NCBI GenBank assembly: GCA_903908825.1
Contig: CAIVTJ010000209.1
Span: 1-33,009 of the forward strand
Direction: 5' to 3'
DNA length: 33,009 bases
Source: an uncultured Pseudomonadota bacterium
GTDB lineage: Bacteria; Pseudomonadota; Gammaproteobacteria; Steroidobacterales; Steroidobacteraceae
Program-made: the position numbers and the translations under genes
The notes under the pieces: model-generated
The model's database searches: none
What the model was told of the DNA's origin: nothing
What the model saw: only the letters and a program-made list of their open reading frames with translations
Shown: piece after piece, positions 7,003 to 27,101 of the stretch
Position numbering within the stretch: the stretch's first letter is position 1
Layout: each line of letters starts with the position of its first letter

Positions 7003-7612
7003 AAGCGCCGCCACCCAAAACCACTGCCAACACGCCGAAGCCCAGAGCCAGCATGAGACCTACGCCACCCATGAGCATCCGGCTCCACACCAACAAAAGC
7101 CAGGTGTCATGTGGCGCAAAGGCGTCGTGAAACAAGGCCCACAGTTCGGCGGGAAAGGTTGTGGCCGCGTTGACCACCAGCAACAGGCCCGAGAACACCA
7201 GAGCCCACGCCATGCGCCGCAGCAGCCACAGACCGGTTGACACGGGCCACGCCAACGCGACGATGAGCACCAGCAAGCTGTAAGAGAGAGTGCCGCCAGC
7301 AGTCAGGTCTACCTGCATGCCACTAACTTGCTGCGCGGCAAGCGGTGCGCCCAACCAAGCTTCCGGGTAGATCCATTGACCTTTGATCTGAATCGGCTGC
7401 GTCAGCACAGCAGTCAGTTGCAGCGTTTGATTGTGGCCTTTTGTGGCCGCGTCTAATGAGACCACACGGAACTCGCCCTGCACCGCCTCGACTACCGATT
7501 TGATCAACGGCGCCAAGCTCTGCAGCACGCTACCTTGTGCGAAATGTGCAATGCCCAATACCAGCACTGAGGCGATAACGAGACGCAAGGCCAATCTGAG
7601 CGGACTAAGCAT
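6977..7612 (-). CDS. Exosortase-associated membrane protein (XrtH partner type)
   Basis: 211 residues with one N-terminal TM helix (residues ~5-27), an extracytoplasmic domain of ~75 residues, then three TM helices (about 108-130, 135-152 and 180-205). Its start overlaps the end of the exosortase gene by 8 bp, so the two are almost certainly co-translated. Position, size and topology fit the membrane protein that accompanies exosortase H in other genomes, but there is no short motif I can point to as proof. It probably helps present or process sorted proteins at the inner membrane. Confidence 0.62.
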   Translation of the reverse strand: MLSPLRLALRLVIASVLVLGIAHFAQGSVLQSLAPLIKSVVEAVQGEFRVVSLDAATKGHNQTLQLTAVLTQPIQIKGQWIYPEAWLGAPLAAQQVSGMQVDLTAGGTLSYSLLVLIVALAWPVSTGLWLLRRMAWALVFSGLLLVVNAATTFPAELWALFHDAFAPHDTWLLLVWSRMLMGGVGLMLALGFGVLAVVLGGGAFRASHLPE

Positions 7613-8111
7613 TGTTTCTAACCAGAAACAGGCAGCCGTAAAAATACACGCAGACGAGCATGACGACTGCTACCGGCGTGACTATGGCGTGTAGCGGATC
7701 GAACCAGGCCGGATCGGCCCGGTACGCGTAAAAAAGCAACAGGATGCGTGCCTGGTTAATTGCGAAGACAAACATAAGGCCGCAGGCGATATCCAACAAC
7801 TTGAATCGCCAACGCAGCGGCGCAACAGCAAAGGCTGCAAGCAACAAGAAGAATGCCTCTATTCCCTCGCATCCATTGAGGATGTTCAAGCCACCGCCCG
7901 GTGCCTGAATGCTGAAACGCAGGGCTTGTGCATGAATTTCCGGTGACAGTGCGTTCACCAGAAACACTGCGGGCCGTACCGTTAAATGGTGCACCACCAA
8001 GTACTCAATAGGGCCCTCGCGACCCAACTGCCATAACCCTTGTAAGGCCACGAAAATCAACACGAAGGGCAGCAGTCTGCGCAGCAAAAAAGCATTCGAT
8101 TCAGATGTCAT
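7605..8111 (-). CDS. xrtH: Exosortase, compact XrtH-like
   Basis: 168 residues, membrane-embedded. The exosortase catalytic triad is visible: Cys81 in ILNGCEGIEA, Arg122 in INQARILLLF and His141 in FDPLHAIVTP, each at a membrane edge as the family requires. Exosortases cut proteins carrying a C-terminal PEP-CTERM-like tripartite signal and are thought to pass them on to the envelope or exterior. The short length, lack of N-terminal extra helices and the linked partner gene point to XrtH rather than the ~300-residue EpsH/XrtA or XrtD types. It is divergent from two genes encoding proteins with candidate sorting signals, its likely local substrates. Confidence 0.85.
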   Translation of the reverse strand: MTSESNAFLLRRLLPFVLIFVALQGLWQLGREGPIEYLVVHHLTVRPAVFLVNALSPEIHAQALRFSIQAPGGGLNILNGCEGIEAFFLLLAAFAVAPLRWRFKLLDIACGLMFVFAINQARILLLFYAYRADPAWFDPLHAIVTPVAVVMLVCVYFYGCLFLVRNNA

Positions 8112-9019: not shown

Positions 9020-12000
9020 ATGTCGAAACTAAACAACTGGTTGTCGCATTCCGCTGTCTCTGTTCTGCTTGCGGTGAGCCTGCTCACCGCACACAGCGCC
9101 ACCGCGGCGGTGTTAGCGGGATGGGATGTCCACAGTCTGGCAGGCGGATCAGCGAGCTTCGGCGCATCGCCTTTATCGGCTACCACAGCCGACGCCAATC
9201 TGACTGTCGTGGGGCTGACGCGGGGTAGCGGCATCTCAACCAGCGGCACCGCAGCAGCACGCGGTTGGGGTGGCACGGATTGGCAGACTGCCAATGCCGC
9301 AGCAGCCGTCACCGGGAACGATGTGGTGACCTTCTCGGTCACAGCCAACAGCGGCTACCAGGTCTCACTCAGCGCCATCAGTAAGCTCGATTATCGGCGC
9401 TCATCAACAGGCCCTTCCAGCGGCGTGTTGCAGTACAAGCTCGGCAATGGTGCCTACACCGACATCACTACACTGAGCTTTACCGCAACAGCATCCAGTG
9501 GCGGTTCGATCTCCTCCATCGATCTCAGCAGTATCCCGGCCCTGCAAAACGTAGCGGCTGGCACTACAGTCTCATTCCGCATTGCCAACTATGGTGGCAG
9601 CAGCAGCACAGGCACTTGGTATATCTATGACGTTGCCAATACCACCGCTGACGATCTGCAGATCAGCGGCACAGTCAGTGTGGGCAGCGGCGTTGTTAAC
9701 GGCAGTTGTGGCAGCTCTAATGGCCAGACCTTAGGCTCGATCCCCAGCAGCAATCTGTGCAGCTTGGGCAGCGCTTCTGCGGTAACTGGCACAGGCCCGT
9801 GGAACTGGAGTTGCAGCGGCACAGGAGGCGGCAGCACGGCCAGCTGCTCGGCAAACCTCTCGGCTGCCAGCCCGTTTACGATCTTCCACACCAATGACGT
9901 ACACGCACGCCTGACGCCTCACAAGTGGGTCATTCCCGCGCATGGCAGCGCGGCCGAAGTCTTTGAAGATGTCGGCGGCGCTGCGCATCTGGCCGGCAAG
10001 ATGCTGTCGCTGGTGGCCGGTAAGCCGACCGCATTAGTGTTGGACGGTGGCGATATCTCTGAAGGCAACCCGGTCGGTGATATGAACTGCACCACCCCAA
10101 CGGGTGGCGGAACACCGGTTTGCTCCAACAGCGGCTATGGCAACGGTGGCATGACCGCATTTTATACGCTGCTGCATCAGAAGCTTGCAGCCCTTGGCGG
10201 CTCGCGCGGCAGCCGAGGAATCGACGCACTGGTCGTCGGCAATCACGACGTACGTGACATCAGTTACATCACCAACATGGAGGCAATGCACACGGCGGGC
10301 GTGCCGATTATTTCGATAAACGTGCGTGACATTGCCACGCACGCACCGCACTTTGCACCCTGGACCACCGTGACGGTCAATGGCACCAAGGTCGGTATCA
10401 TCGGTTACACCACATCCACGGCAACTGTTGGCGCTTCATTAGCCAATACGCTTGAAGTTGTGGACTGCCAATGGAGTGGCTCGACGACCTGCAACATCTC
10501 GGACTATGTGACCGAGCTGCGCAACAACCAACATTGTGATGTGGTGATCCTGCTGACCCATGACGGCCACAGCGACTTGGTGGATCCGGCCGGACCCGTG
10601 CTGGCTGATACCGGATCGCCCAAGGTTCCGGAAATTGCGGTGACCGGTCACTGGCACACCTGGGCCGAAACCGCATGGCAGCCGCAGGCGCTTAACTACA
10701 AGTCAACCTTCGTTGAGTCCTCCAGCTACATGAAGTACATCGGCGAGCTCAACGTCGATGGCACGGGAAAGTACCTCAGTGCAACTCAACATGTTCTACG
10801 CAATTCCGATATTACCCCCGATGCCGATGTTGCAGCCTTCGTCAGCAATCTGATCGCGCAATACAACGCAGCTCACCCGGGTCATCCCGTGGATGAAGTG
10901 GTGGGTTACACCAGCGATGCGCTGTTGCTCGATAACGCTATGAAGTGGTGGTCACCGGATGAATATCCGTGGAACGGCAACAACACCGCCGGCCAATGGA
11001 TCACTGACGCGATGAAATGGAAGTGTGATCGCATCAGCTGGCCCAGCGCTGGCGGTTGCGACCTCGCGGTAGAGGCTGGCGGTGGCGTGCGGGCGGACAT
11101 TCCCGCCGGCCCCGTCACCTATCTGCAGGTCTACGAGACCTTCCCTTGGGCCGATGACACCTATGTCCGCATCAACATGACTGGACAGGACATCATCAAC
11201 TTCCTCAAGGCCACGAACCTCGGCGCGGGTTTCTCGCGCGAACTGACGGTAACGGCCACAGACGGCGTCCTTAATAGCGTGCTGATGAATGGTCAACCCA
11301 TAGGCCTGTCGACCACCTATAAGGTCGCCATCAACAACTACATGCTGGCTCATCCGCCGTCGGGCTATGTCTGGCCGACCAATGTCTCAGCGGAGTCAGA
11401 TCCGGCCAATGAACTGGTCCGCGACAGTCTGTCCGAGTTCATGCGCGTTGCGCACAATTCGCCGGCCACGGCCTACACCATCGGTGGTTCGCGTTACACG
11501 TTCAACGGCGAATACTCGGGTGGCTACCGCGCCGTCGTCACGATGATGAACGATGCCGAAAGTAAGCCCACCTTTGAAGATGCCTTTGTCCGTCTGTTGG
11601 GCGCGACCACCGAAACGCTGGCGCGGCGCGGCTCGCATCAGGTACCCGCAGACTTGGTCAACGCCGACGGCTCCGTCAATGGTGCTCATCGCTTGGCCGA
11701 GCAAGAGCTCTATCGCAGCTTCTTGGGCTTTAAAACCGGCTTGGTAGTGCCCGGCGACATCCTAGAAGTCTGGGGTAAGGCCAGCTTCTATGGCGGCAAC
11801 CCGGAGTTTGTCGATCAGGAAGGCATCTACGGTGACGGACTGGAGTTCAAGATCATCGGGCACGATGCATCACTGGCTAAGCCGACCTACGTGGCTTCGC
11901 TAGATGCACTGCTGACCAATGCATACAAGAACCATTATGTGCGCTTCCTGGCCCGCAAAACTGCGGCTGACACGGTTGTCGACCAGAACGGCAAGTCCTT

Positions 12001-13870
12001 AAAGATATGGGATCAGACGGGTTATACCGCTGCCACCTTGCCAGGCGCTGTGGGTGACACCTTGGACATCAGCGGCGTGCTGACCATGGAGAGCTTCGGC
12101 TATCGCTTGCGTCGCGGTAGCGCAGCCGTTACTTCCGCCAGCCTGCCGGCGGCCTTGGGCGTCAGCTCACATGTGTTGGCGCAAGCAGCCACAGCCAGTG
12201 CGCCCATCACAGTGACTGCAACCGCATCCATCAGCGGTGGCGGCTATGCCCTGGTACCTGTTGCCGATGCTCAGGTTGCCAGTGGTGCAAGCAGCACCAA
12301 CTATGGCAGCGGTAGCAACTTGTATCTGCAAGGCAGTACAGCCAGCGGTACTTTCGGCATTGAACGTGCCTGGTTGAAGTTTGATCTGTCGTCTATCCCG
12401 GCTGGTTCAACCATCACCGGCGCAAGCTTGCAATTGTTCAACTGGAAGGCGACGGGCCCTTCCATATCCGCTGAAGCGCGCGGTATCAGTACCGACACGT
12501 GGACGGAGACAGGCCTCAACTGGAGCAACCAGCCGGCCACCGGTACGGTATTGGATACGCAGACACTGGCATCCGGCACGACCAGCGTCTGGTACAACTG
12601 GAATGTCACCTCGTTTGTGCAAAGCGAATTCGCGGGGGATAAGACCGTGTCGCTGCTGGTCAAAGCCTCGGACGAAGCACTGGCCGGCGGCCCGACTTAT
12701 GGCTTCGATGCCAAGGAGTACGGCAGCAACGTGCCTGTGCTGCAAGTCACGACGCAAGCCACAGCCAGCTCGGTGGCTAACGTCAAGCTCTACTATCGCT
12801 ACTCGGCCAATAACACCACCTGGGGCAGTTGGACGCAGATCGGCAGTGACCTGAGCGCTGCGCCTTACAGCGCCGGCTTCAGTTTCCCCAACGGACTGGG
12901 CTATTACGAGTTCTATAGTGTCGCTACCGATAATTTAGGCAACATCGAATCGACACCGCTGGCTGCACAATCCGCCGTGGTTTACCAGTCGGCTTCGGGT
13001 AGCGCACAGACCATCAGCTTTGCCGCGCTATCAGACGCACCGGCCGGATCCAGTGCATCGCTGATTGCCACGGCAAGCTCAAGTTTGCCGGTGAGTTTCA
13101 GCAGCCAGACGCCTGGCATTTGCAGCGTCAGCGGCGCGCAAGTTACCAGTCTGACCATCGGCACCTGCGTCCTTGCGGCCAATCAGAGCGGCAACGTCAG
13201 CTACTGGTTGCCGGCTGCCGCAGTAACCCGCAGCTTCAGTGTGACCGGTGTACCGCAGAGCATCAGCTTCACGGCCTTGATCGATGCCTCGACGGGTGGG
13301 ACGCAAAGCCTGATCGCCTCGGCGACCTCAGGACTGACTGTCAGCTTCAGCAGTCAAACGCCCTCGATCTGCAGTGTCAGTGGCACTTCAGTCAGTGCAC
13401 AGGCGGGTGGCACCTGCACGGTCGCAGCCAATCAAGCCGGTGATGGCGGCTATTGGCTGGCGGCCGCGACAGTCACGCGCAGTTTTACCGTCGCTGGTCA
13501 GGCTCAGACCATCACCTTTGCTGCGCTGACAGATAAAACATTGGGCGTAGCACCCTTTGGCATCAACGCCGCCGCCTCCTCGGGGCTGACGGTCACCTTT
13601 GCGTCCTTAACGAGCAGTGTCTGCACCAGCAGTGGTGGCACAGTCACGCTACTCAAGGCAGGCACCTGCACCATCCAAGCAAGTCAAGCGGGTAACGCCA
13701 ACTATAATGCCGCGCCCAGCGTGTCACGCAGTTTCGCCGTGTTTGATAGCGGCGCAGCGCAAGGCGATTCATCCGGCAACGGTGATGCTCCCCTGCCCTT
13801 GTGGGCTCTGGTCCTGATGGCAGCAGGCTTGATGGGAATGCTGCAAATTAAGCAGCGCAGTTGGGTCTAA
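9020..13870 (+). CDS. Giant exported 5'-nucleotidase/metallophosphoesterase with repeats and C-terminal anchor
   Basis: 1616 residues. A Sec signal covers residues 1-30 and the mature start is VLAGWDVHS, similar to its neighbour's LAGWTFES. A beta-rich domain runs to ~220, then a short Cys-rich NGSCGSS...GPWNWSC module (~225-280). A calcineurin-like phosphoesterase follows with HTNDVHAR (~290), LDGGDISEGN, VVGNHDVRD (~406), LTHDGHSD and VTGHWHTWAE (~540). A 5'-nucleotidase C-terminal domain carries NNTAGQWITDAM and GGGVRADIPAGP (~687). A possible OB-fold segment lies at ~910-1035 and a DNRLRE/CBM-like domain at ~1077-1247. Three 83-residue Ig-like repeats span 1330-1578, and the end is DAPLPLWALVLMAAGL plus a basic tail. 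UshA/YhcR-type enzymes release phosphate or nucleosides from nucleotides or nucleic acid outside the cell. Substrate range and the sorting route are inference. Confidence 0.88.
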   Translation: MSKLNNWLSHSAVSVLLAVSLLTAHSATAAVLAGWDVHSLAGGSASFGASPLSATTADANLTVVGLTRGSGISTSGTAAARGWGGTDWQTANAAAAVTGNDVVTFSVTANSGYQVSLSAISKLDYRRSSTGPSSGVLQYKLGNGAYTDITTLSFTATASSGGSISSIDLSSIPALQNVAAGTTVSFRIANYGGSSSTGTWYIYDVANTTADDLQISGTVSVGSGVVNGSCGSSNGQTLGSIPSSNLCSLGSASAVTGTGPWNWSCSGTGGGSTASCSANLSAASPFTIFHTNDVHARLTPHKWVIPAHGSAAEVFEDVGGAAHLAGKMLSLVAGKPTALVLDGGDISEGNPVGDMNCTTPTGGGTPVCSNSGYGNGGMTAFYTLLHQKLAALGGSRGSRGIDALVVGNHDVRDISYITNMEAMHTAGVPIISINVRDIATHAPHFAPWTTVTVNGTKVGIIGYTTSTATVGASLANTLEVVDCQWSGSTTCNISDYVTELRNNQHCDVVILLTHDGHSDLVDPAGPVLADTGSPKVPEIAVTGHWHTWAETAWQPQALNYKSTFVESSSYMKYIGELNVDGTGKYLSATQHVLRNSDITPDADVAAFVSNLIAQYNAAHPGHPVDEVVGYTSDALLLDNAMKWWSPDEYPWNGNNTAGQWITDAMKWKCDRISWPSAGGCDLAVEAGGGVRADIPAGPVTYLQVYETFPWADDTYVRINMTGQDIINFLKATNLGAGFSRELTVTATDGVLNSVLMNGQPIGLSTTYKVAINNYMLAHPPSGYVWPTNVSAESDPANELVRDSLSEFMRVAHNSPATAYTIGGSRYTFNGEYSGGYRAVVTMMNDAESKPTFEDAFVRLLGATTETLARRGSHQVPADLVNADGSVNGAHRLAEQELYRSFLGFKTGLVVPGDILEVWGKASFYGGNPEFVDQEGIYGDGLEFKIIGHDASLAKPTYVASLDALLTNAYKNHYVRFLARKTAADTVVDQNGKSLKIWDQTGYTAATLPGAVGDTLDISGVLTMESFGYRLRRGSAAVTSASLPAALGVSSHVLAQAATASAPITVTATASISGGGYALVPVADAQVASGASSTNYGSGSNLYLQGSTASGTFGIERAWLKFDLSSIPAGSTITGASLQLFNWKATGPSISAEARGISTDTWTETGLNWSNQPATGTVLDTQTLASGTTSVWYNWNVTSFVQSEFAGDKTVSLLVKASDEALAGGPTYGFDAKEYGSNVPVLQVTTQATASSVANVKLYYRYSANNTTWGSWTQIGSDLSAAPYSAGFSFPNGLGYYEFYSVATDNLGNIESTPLAAQSAVVYQSASGSAQTISFAALSDAPAGSSASLIATASSSLPVSFSSQTPGICSVSGAQVTSLTIGTCVLAANQSGNVSYWLPAAAVTRSFSVTGVPQSISFTALIDASTGGTQSLIASATSGLTVSFSSQTPSICSVSGTSVSAQAGGTCTVAANQAGDGGYWLAAATVTRSFTVAGQAQTITFAALTDKTLGVAPFGINAAASSGLTVTFASLTSSVCTSSGGTVTLLKAGTCTIQASQAGNANYNAAPSVSRSFAVFDSGAAQGDSSGNGDAPLPLWALVLMAAGLMGMLQIKQRSWV
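13007..13753 (+). repeat. Three tandem 83-residue Ig-like repeats in the giant protein
   Basis: Repeat units begin at 13007, 13256 and 13505, exactly 249 bp apart, each with Q(T/S)I(S/T)F(A/T)AL, a central V(S/T)F(S/A)S stretch with two Cys in TP.ICSVSG and GTC, and an end like TRSF(S/T)V. The first two units are closest to each other. Such repeats usually act as stalks or spacers that hold the enzymatic head away from the surface. Confidence 0.88.
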
Positions 13871-14475: not shown

Positions 14476-15363
14476 TCAGCTGCCCAAGGCCGCCTGTAGG
14501 CTGGCAACTTCTTCGGCTGACTCTTCCAGGATCGCCGCCACATCCTCGTGATCCAGCTGCATGCGATCAAAGGCCGTGATGCCCTGCATGTTCAACTCAA
14601 TCGACTCCGGATAGGCATGGAACGACACGAACAAGGTAGCCACCGTGAGCACGTCTGTGAGATCCGGCTCGTCATCATGATCGCGCGTCAGATCTTCATG
14701 CTCGGCAACAGCCTCAACGATCTCGTCGCTCATTTCCCAATTTTCCAGAATGCTCTTGGCAATACCGGCATGCCAATCCCGAACAATTTCGTTGTAGCCG
14801 GCACGATCGGCAAACAGCGCCGGGTGATCAGCGGAGCGGGCAAGGATGTAGAGGCGACCTACGCCGTGCATGAGTCCAGCCAGCAGTGCTGTGTCGGCAT
14901 TGACCTGTGAGCAGCCTCGTGCCACCACGTAAGACATGGCGGCGACAAACACGCAGCGTTCCCACAACTCACCCAAAGGCTGACGCAGGCGCGCCAGGTC
15001 GGGCGAAGCCCGCATCTGCTCAACCGCAAAGGTCAAGGCGGCACTGCGCACCAGGTTCAAGCCAATGCGCGAGATTGCAGACTTCAGATCGGTAACGCGC
15101 GGACCGCCAGGATTCAGGGCTGCCGAGTTAGACAACTGCAGCAACTTGGCCGCCAGCCCGGGCTCGGCGCTGACTACGCGCACAATCTGCTTGGAACTCA
15201 CAAACTCGTCTGCCAGCACCTGACGCACGCGTGCCGCGATATCCGGAAAAGCAGGCAGCTCAACTTTGCCCGTAGACAGCTCTGCCGCCAGCGATTCAAT
15301 AAATGCGAAAGCCACCGGGCTGGATGAACCCGCCTCTGCAACCGAGCTGTTTGACATATTCAT
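14476..15363 (-). CDS. HDOD-domain protein (distal copy)
   Basis: 295 residues. I chose ATG 15363 because GAGAGGA lies five bases upstream; an in-frame TTG at 15375 is less likely. The HDOD domain covers residues ~25-240: KVELPAFPDIAARVRQ, SAEPGLAAKLLQLSNSA, and LAGLMHGVGRLY, where the HD dyad reads His166-Gly167, so no metal-dependent phosphodiesterase activity is expected. HDOD proteins act as signalling scaffolds in motility, biofilm and cyclic-di-GMP circuits, mostly by protein-protein contacts. This gene is last in the flagellar strand and is a paralogue of the HDOD gene at 15915-16808, with the same length and the same HG substitution. Confidence 0.85.
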   Translation of the reverse strand: MNMSNSSVAEAGSSSPVAFAFIESLAAELSTGKVELPAFPDIAARVRQVLADEFVSSKQIVRVVSAEPGLAAKLLQLSNSAALNPGGPRVTDLKSAISRIGLNLVRSAALTFAVEQMRASPDLARLRQPLGELWERCVFVAAMSYVVARGCSQVNADTALLAGLMHGVGRLYILARSADHPALFADRAGYNEIVRDWHAGIAKSILENWEMSDEIVEAVAEHEDLTRDHDDEPDLTDVLTVATLFVSFHAYPESIELNMQGITAFDRMQLDHEDVAAILEESAEEVASLQAALGS

Positions 15364-15384
15364 GAGTCCTCTCAAAAAAACTGA

Positions 15385-15914: not shown

Positions 15915-16808
15915 TCAGCCGCCGAGCACCGCATTGAGTTCGTCTATGGCCTCTTCAGCCTCAGCCAACAGCAACAACACGCCCGCAGCATCGATATCGA
16001 TACGCTGCCAGAAGCGCGCATCAGCCTCTATCAGGGGCAGAGCCGTTTCGACAGACGGGACGGCATCGGCCAACTGTTCGCGCAATGTACCCAGCTGCGC
16101 CGCTGCAGCCAGAACGTCAGTTAGATCTACGCCTGCAGCGGGTATGCGCTGGGCATCAGCATAAAAACGCACAGCATCAACCAAATCTTCAGACATGCCC
16201 CAATCGGTTAGCAATGCTGCGGCAATATCGGTATGCCATTCCTCAAGTATGCGTGTGCACACATCGGGCTGGGCCTGCAAAGCAGGGTGTGCAGCCATAC
16301 GAACGTAAATGCAAAGCCTGCCGATACCATGTAACAGGCCGGCTAGCAGCGCCACGTCTGCATTCAAACGGGAGCGCCTGCGCGCCACGACGCGGCACAG
16401 GGCAGCCAAGGCAATGCTGCGCTGCCACAAAGCCGCCAGTTGCGACTTAAGCGGCCCAAAGTCAGTTTTATTCAGTAGCTGCTGAACGATAAAGGCCATG
16501 GCTGCGGTGCGCACCACGTTGTAGCCCAGGCGCATGACCGCGGTACGCAAGTCAGAGACCTGACGTCCCATAGAATTGAACAACGCAGAGTTGGCCATCT
16601 GCATGACACGCACGGCCAGTAGCGGCTCTGCGCTAATGGCCCTGATGACCAGATCTAGATCAACTTCCTCTGCTGACAGCGCGCGTTGAACACGCATGGC
16701 CGCCTCGGGATAGCTGGGCAGTTCAACCTTGCCTTCAGCCAACTCGCTTGCCAGCGCCTGCATGAAAAACAGGGCTTCTTGATCCAGGTTTGAATGAACT
16801 TCAGGCAT
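15915..16808 (-). CDS. HDOD-domain protein (motB-proximal copy)
   Basis: 297 residues from ATG 16808, with GGAAG about nine bases upstream. It has the same layout as its paralogue: KVELPSYPEAAMRVQR, AISAEPLLAVRVMQMANSA, and LAGLLHGIGRL with His160-Gly161 in place of HD, then a helical tail. It begins 18 bp after motB, so it is part of the flagellar operon. The likely role is a non-enzymatic scaffold in motility or surface signalling, inferred from the family and the context. No response-regulator or EAL domain is attached. Confidence 0.87.
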   Translation of the reverse strand: MPEVHSNLDQEALFFMQALASELAEGKVELPSYPEAAMRVQRALSAEEVDLDLVIRAISAEPLLAVRVMQMANSALFNSMGRQVSDLRTAVMRLGYNVVRTAAMAFIVQQLLNKTDFGPLKSQLAALWQRSIALAALCRVVARRRSRLNADVALLAGLLHGIGRLCIYVRMAAHPALQAQPDVCTRILEEWHTDIAAALLTDWGMSEDLVDAVRFYADAQRIPAAGVDLTDVLAAAAQLGTLREQLADAVPSVETALPLIEADARFWQRIDIDAAGVLLLLAEAEEAIDELNAVLGG

Positions 16809-27079: not shown

Positions 27080-27101
27080 GGTGTCCGATCCTGTTGCAGG
27101 G

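Follow-up and report, generated by a model that had tools for sequence, protein, structure and literature searches.

A flagellar gene cluster without fliG and fliM, and a separate switch operon, in a Steroidobacteraceae genome

The window analysed here, the whole of contig C209 (33,009 nucleotides) from a 2.95-Mb MAG (98.8% complete, 381 contigs, 1.9% estimated contamination), carries a flagellar cluster in which only 22 bp lie between fliL and fliN, leaving no room for fliM and raising the question of where this motor obtains its rotor switch.

The flagellar cluster of the window

The genes of the cluster run on the minus strand in the order fliF-fliH-I-J-K-L-fliN-O-P-Q-R-flhB-A-F-G-fliA-motA-motB (Table 1). 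The first-pass annotation had held that fliM is absent between fliL and fliN, that fliG is likewise missing from its place, that gene order around the gaps is otherwise textbook, and that the cluster FliN is a single-domain protein and not a FliM-FliN fusion. All of these readings stand: the gap at fliM is common to seven independently assembled genomes of the genus, fliF and fliH abut, the remaining order is conserved, and FliN carries a SpoA domain only. The order fliE-F-(G)-H-I-J-K-L-(M)-N-O-P-Q-R-flhB-A-F-G-fliA is common to the window and to family members with a classical gammaproteobacterial-type polar cluster (G011, G012, G018, and G022), and both have a sigma-54-type promoter before fliL. 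Unlike these clusters, the window lacks fliG, fliM, and cheYZ, all of which are found in one separate operon. The fliF-fliG-fliH order of classical relatives and the fliL-fliM-fliN order present in their loci L077, L078, L081, and L085, the two arrangements that mark a classical polar cluster, are thus not found in the window, and a third gap, overlooked in the first-pass annotation, occurs where cheYZ is absent between fliA and motA, the order in the relatives' loci L195, L197, and L198 being fliA-cheY-cheZ-motA-motB.

Two HDOD-domain proteins are encoded after motB (window positions 14476-15375 and 15915-16808), adjoining the flagellar genes. Positions 9020-13870 encode a protein of 1616 aa, likely secreted, that has a CBM96 module and ends in a 5'-nucleotidase C-terminal domain; near it lies an exosortase-like gene (7605-8111) whose match is weak and below the Pfam cut-off.

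Table 1. Flagellar and switch features on the window (contig C209) and on contig C302.
Feature	Contig	Position	Strand	Domain match or remark
fliF	C209	31416..33008	-	PF01514, PF08345; truncated by contig end
fliH	C209	30738..31415	-	PF02108; directly abuts fliF, without fliG between
fliI	C209	29386..30741	-	PF00006, PF18269
fliJ	C209	28937..29389	-	PF02050
fliK	C209	27834..28940	-	Position and BLAST correspondence with relatives' fliK
sigma-54-type -24/-12 site, TGGCACAGACCTTGCT	C209	27703..27718	-	Upstream of fliL, now heading fliL-fliN-fliO...; 11/11 consensus bases
fliL	C209	27102..27647	-	PF03748, E 4.8e-23
fliL-fliN junction	C209	27080..27101	-	22 bp; site of fliM (about 1 kb) in classical relatives
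fliN, cluster copy	C209	26714..27079	-	121 aa; single SpoA domain, PF01052 only, E 7.5e-24
fliO, fliP, fliQ, fliR, flhB, flhA	C209	21210..26754	-	Export apparatus, normal order; BLAST correspondence across relatives
flhF, flhG, fliA	C209	18430..21183	-	
fliA-motA junction	C209	18411..18429	-	19 bp; site of cheY-cheZ in classical relatives
motA and motB	C209	16827..18410	-	Stator genes; PF01618; PF13677 with PF00691
fliG	C302	15315-14308		
fliM	C302	14269-13268		
second fliN (FliN-B)	C302	13268-12942		Overlaps fliM end

A switch operon on a second contig

A genome-wide HMM search for FliM, as proposed in the first-pass annotation, found one FliM (E 1.7e-71), located away from the cluster on contig C302 together with the only FliG (E 3.9e-40). 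Three SpoA matches were obtained genome-wide, FliM, the window FliN, and a second FliN (FliN-B), and all but the window FliN are on C302. The genes there form an operon ordered fliG-fliM-fliN(second copy)-cheY-cheZ-cheA-cheR, which also holds the only CheZ match of the genome. The flanks are chromosomal, mnmG and uvrD standing at opposite sides, with genes between that by eye read as trkA and trkH. All direction-control genes missing from the cluster (fliG, fliM, and cheYZ) therefore lie in one operon elsewhere; fliM is encoded away from the cluster rather than lost, and the switch is not missing. The proposal that fliG and fliM had departed independently fails for this genome, as both are in the same operon with the second fliN and cheY-cheZ-cheA, and the second, divergent C-ring locus that had also been suggested was not found in the genome, which has a single FlhA, FliM, and FliG.

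The C302 switch proteins look functional from their domains and residues. FliM is full length, with PF02154 (E 4.6e-71) and a C-terminal SpoA domain (PF01052, E 1.3e-14), and retains both the N-terminal CheY-binding peptide (LNQEEIDALLNG; MSSDILNQEEIDALLNG) and the FliG-binding GGxG motif, here FGGMGR. The N, middle, and C domains of FliG are all present (PF14842, PF14841, and PF01706), EHPQ is kept, and K, R, D, D, and K occupy the positions of the E. coli torque-helix charged residues 264, 281, 288, 289, and 297. FliN-B (about 108 aa) matches PF01052 only, with no CheC-type domain; it retains the SpoA core and has lost the usual C-terminal SPAERIRKLK segment. It is short and fast-evolving; the FliN-B sequences have long branches, and 66% of bootstrap trees unite them in a single clade.

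C209 and C302 are separate contigs of the MAG, and their origin in a common genome is suggested by composition and by the arrangement in relatives: tetranucleotide usage of C302 correlates with that of the window at r 0.972, versus 0.73-0.85 for loci of other genera. Each of the seven flagellated genomes in this genus (g1) has the same split between main cluster and switch locus. Where contigs cover them, fliF-fliH and fliL-fliN adjoin in the main clusters L089-L094, and the first-pass annotation had allowed that a corrected assembly might place fliM beside fliL; the six further genomes instead show the same fliL-fliN gap, spaced by about 9-25 bp, one of them (L091) on a 131-kb contig from an assembly of 40 contigs. 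The corresponding switch loci (L069, L070, L072, and L074-L076) adjoin mnmG in most g1 genomes, as in C302; for G004 the distance to mnmG is about 5 kb, and the G007 operon lies within a longer chemotaxis cluster. FliM of G004 (L074) is far more divergent than that of its sister G007, with 44% to the C302 protein and a long branch, and this contig terminates inside the second fliN.

These observations bear on three rival explanations. An assembly or binning artefact, in which fliM was dropped or collapsed between fliL and fliN and C302 is a contaminant, draws on the 381 contigs and 1.9% estimated contamination of the MAG; however, since the gap is common to six other genomes, including the 131-kb contig, it is no misassembly. 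The 9-25-bp junction together with a separate fliG-fliM-fliN-che locus in these genomes, on contigs of 131 and 362 kb among others, one FliM per primary system, and the matching composition of C302 and the window all argue against an artefact, which L091 and L072 already refute, making it highly improbable. True loss, with a motor that runs without FliM and FliG or uses a divergent replacement, would account for the cluster taken alone, which is without both genes, but C302 encodes FliM and FliG at full length and with their functional residues conserved, which leaves it next to no chance. The C302 locus might also serve a different flagellum, for instance one of lateral type, given that G002, G003, G020, and G167 carry a second or lateral-type system with a fliG, fliM, and fliN belonging to it. 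This too is very improbable: only one FlhA is encoded in the genome (G000), in the window, so the C302 switch has only one flagellum to serve, and lateral FliM, FliG, and FliN fall in distant clades of their own (SH-aLRT 99-100) while C302 FliM and FliG group among the primary ones. The C302 switch was accordingly not assigned to a lateral (secondary) system, the clades being separate and a second export apparatus being absent from the genome.

Displacement across the family

The family survey covered 217 genomes, 142 of them with FliM, and compared FliM and FliN coordinates by eye; a few FliMs at contig ends could not be judged, and FliM adjoins FliN in nearly all others. Displaced fliM genes occur in 17 of the 142 FliM-bearing genomes: the seven of g1, G024 and G148 (g17), G224 (g13), G120 (g11), and G017, G160, G161, G157, G163, and G167 (g10). 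Several states can be told apart among them. Only fliM is out in G160, G161, G157, and G163, where it lies alone among unrelated genes, with no second fliN and no cheZ found, so that displacement can occur without chemotaxis linkage and without a second FliN. In G017 (L096, L080) and G224 (L177) fliM and a second fliN are out with fliG at home, the G224 genes standing as fliM-fliN-B-cheY directly after motB. Native fliG is retained alongside a second fliG-fliM-fliN set beside che genes in G024 (L095, L086), and both fliG and fliM are out in g1, G148 (L165, L164), and G120 (L185, L184), with no second fliN seen in G120. Complete clusters accompanied by extra genes were also found, namely fliG-fliM-fliN-cheY-cheZ-cheA-cheW in G048 (L187) and fliM-cheY-cheZ in G050 (L188); the loci pairs L171/L160 and L187/L189 were also counted among the intermediates. 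This series fits a course in which a second set is gained and the old copies are lost singly, fliM first, with the cluster fliN kept.

The extra switch sets of G048 and G050 are possible two-switch motors. G167 has a single unlinked primary-type fliM (L168:9711-10688) and fliG (L170:9886-10902), and its only FlhA and FliN are those of a lateral-type system equipped with a separate fliG and fliM. The cluster of G197 (L192) is classical except for about 8 kb of extra DNA that separates fliK from fliL.

Phylogenetic trees imply at least four separate losses of fliM from the cluster in the family. At least four changes to the displaced state are required by a tree built from eight other motor proteins, in which G120 and G167 are not represented, and five by the FliM tree. 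Monophyly of the displaced FliMs as a whole was rejected (AU p 0.0037), while a single origin of displaced FliG was not (p 0.058). The displaced FliMs group with the primary FliMs of the family and not with the lateral ones. The remainder of the g17 motor is native (support 100), yet the displaced FliM and FliG fall inside g10, and forcing them with g17 was rejected (AU p 0.0002 for FliM and 0.0016 for FliG); judging by these trees, the switch set of G024 and G148 is a lateral transfer from g10. The native fliG that G024 retains beside the laterally acquired one elsewhere (L095:14301-15332) is on a long branch, 0.6-0.7 versus 0.17-0.25 for its sister, and is possibly decaying or specialising. 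No donor of the g1 switch genes is indicated by the trees, and these may be either relocated natives or a gained replacement set.

Promoter-like sites accompany the displaced genes. Sites of the same kind as that before fliL in the window, scored at a threshold of at least 10 of 11 consensus bases and representing consensus matches rather than mapped promoters, were found before fliL in 17/17 genomes tested (the window and 16 relatives). Near the start of the displaced heads such a site occurs in 14 of 16, against a background of 32/1106 stretches of the same length, the sixteen heads being partly related and not sixteen independent cases. Displaced fliM thus usually appears to retain a promoter of the type present in its former place behind fliL. 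The CheY-binding and torque residues are conserved in displaced operons as well.

The displacements could alternatively reflect neutral reshuffling, in which chance moves were kept since expression in trans is harmless and linkage to chemotaxis genes carries no advantage. Bacterial gene order drifts, and the fliM genes of G160, G161, G157, and G163, alone among unrelated genes and with no cheZ found, fit this explanation, which we consider a serious contender although short of probable. However, the displaced operons of g1, G024/G148, and G224, as well as the extra sets of G048 and G050, adjoin cheY or cheA where contigs cover the neighbourhood, a sigma-54-type promoter is almost always present at displaced operons, and one whole switch set was fixed after lateral transfer. 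The first-pass annotation had argued for selection on the rotor switch rather than random decay; decay is contradicted by intact proteins, conserved functional residues, promoters of their own, and seven genomes alike, and selection is plausible given the repeated displacement in the family.

A C ring probably completed in trans

The window most probably encodes a normal flagellum of the polar type whose C ring is completed in trans by the C302 switch operon, as a genome with one FliM and one FliG, both on C302, and one FlhA, in the window, must use them in the same motor. FliM and FliG from C302 would be built onto the window's FliF ring, CheY from the operon would bind FliM of the same operon, and, as the operon's own sigma-54-type promoter resembles that of fliL, expression would be expected in the same tier. 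Most likely, a chemotaxis-linked switch set would have arisen beside the originals via duplication, relocation, or transfer, whereupon the original fliM and then the original fliG would have become dispensable and been lost, with the cluster fliN retained.

The C ring probably contains two FliN proteins. In Salmonella, FliG, FliM, and FliN are present at 1:1:3, as a FliM-FliN1 heterodimer and a FliN2-FliN3 homodimer (PMC11528121), an arrangement that would allow an additional FliN to become specialised for partnering FliM. FliN-B, encoded by a gene that overlaps fliM, might accordingly pair with the FliM C-terminal domain, leaving the FliN-FliN dimer and the holding of FliH to the cluster FliN, a division of labour that we consider possible but somewhat short of an even chance. 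A precedent exists in Campylobacter, whose C ring has two FliN paralogues, FliH binding having been retained by one while the other took on a structural role (PMC6946799); the C. jejuni ring (FliM, FliY, and FliN) likewise has two FliN-type SpoA proteins in one motor, with one gene adjoining fliM. FliY of C. jejuni has an extra CheC-type domain, however, whereas FliN-B is a bare SpoA protein of a different lineage and its presence in the ring is putative.

The genes fliM, fliY, and cheY are contiguous in the fla/che operon of Bacillus subtilis, so that fliM, a fliN-type gene, and cheY stand together there as in C302; the B. subtilis genes stay inside the main flagellar operon, whereas those of C302 are outside it, together with fliG. 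In E. coli, fliM and cheY are in different operons and the uncorrelated noise needs compensation (PMC7064772), and matched FliM and CheY levels from one operon are a possible benefit of the C302 arrangement, although the g10 orphan fliM genes without detected cheZ indicate that displacement also occurs without it. Flagellar and chemotaxis parts have been exchanged between lineages in Campylobacterota, where replacement by horizontal transfer is described (PMC9321776), as in the present family; whole flagellar gene sets were replaced there, whereas in G024 and G148 only the switch set is foreign and the rest is native. No description of a fliGMN-cheYZ operon separate from the flagellar cluster turned up in the literature searched, although one may exist. 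It is conceivable, if on balance doubtful, that in this family the switch with CheY, CheZ, and CheA is a separate transferable expression unit that has repeatedly displaced the original switch genes, giving a C ring with two specialised FliNs, FliN-B paired with FliM and the cluster FliN as the outer dimer holding FliH.

The switch is normally inherited inside the flagellar cluster, and living relatives in this family show stages of its extraction, up to full removal in g1. The system makes testable how far the 1:1:3 ring tolerates foreign or duplicated parts, whether the two FliN copies have divided the work between them, and whether fliM and cheY in one operon give less noise than the two-operon layout of E. 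coli.
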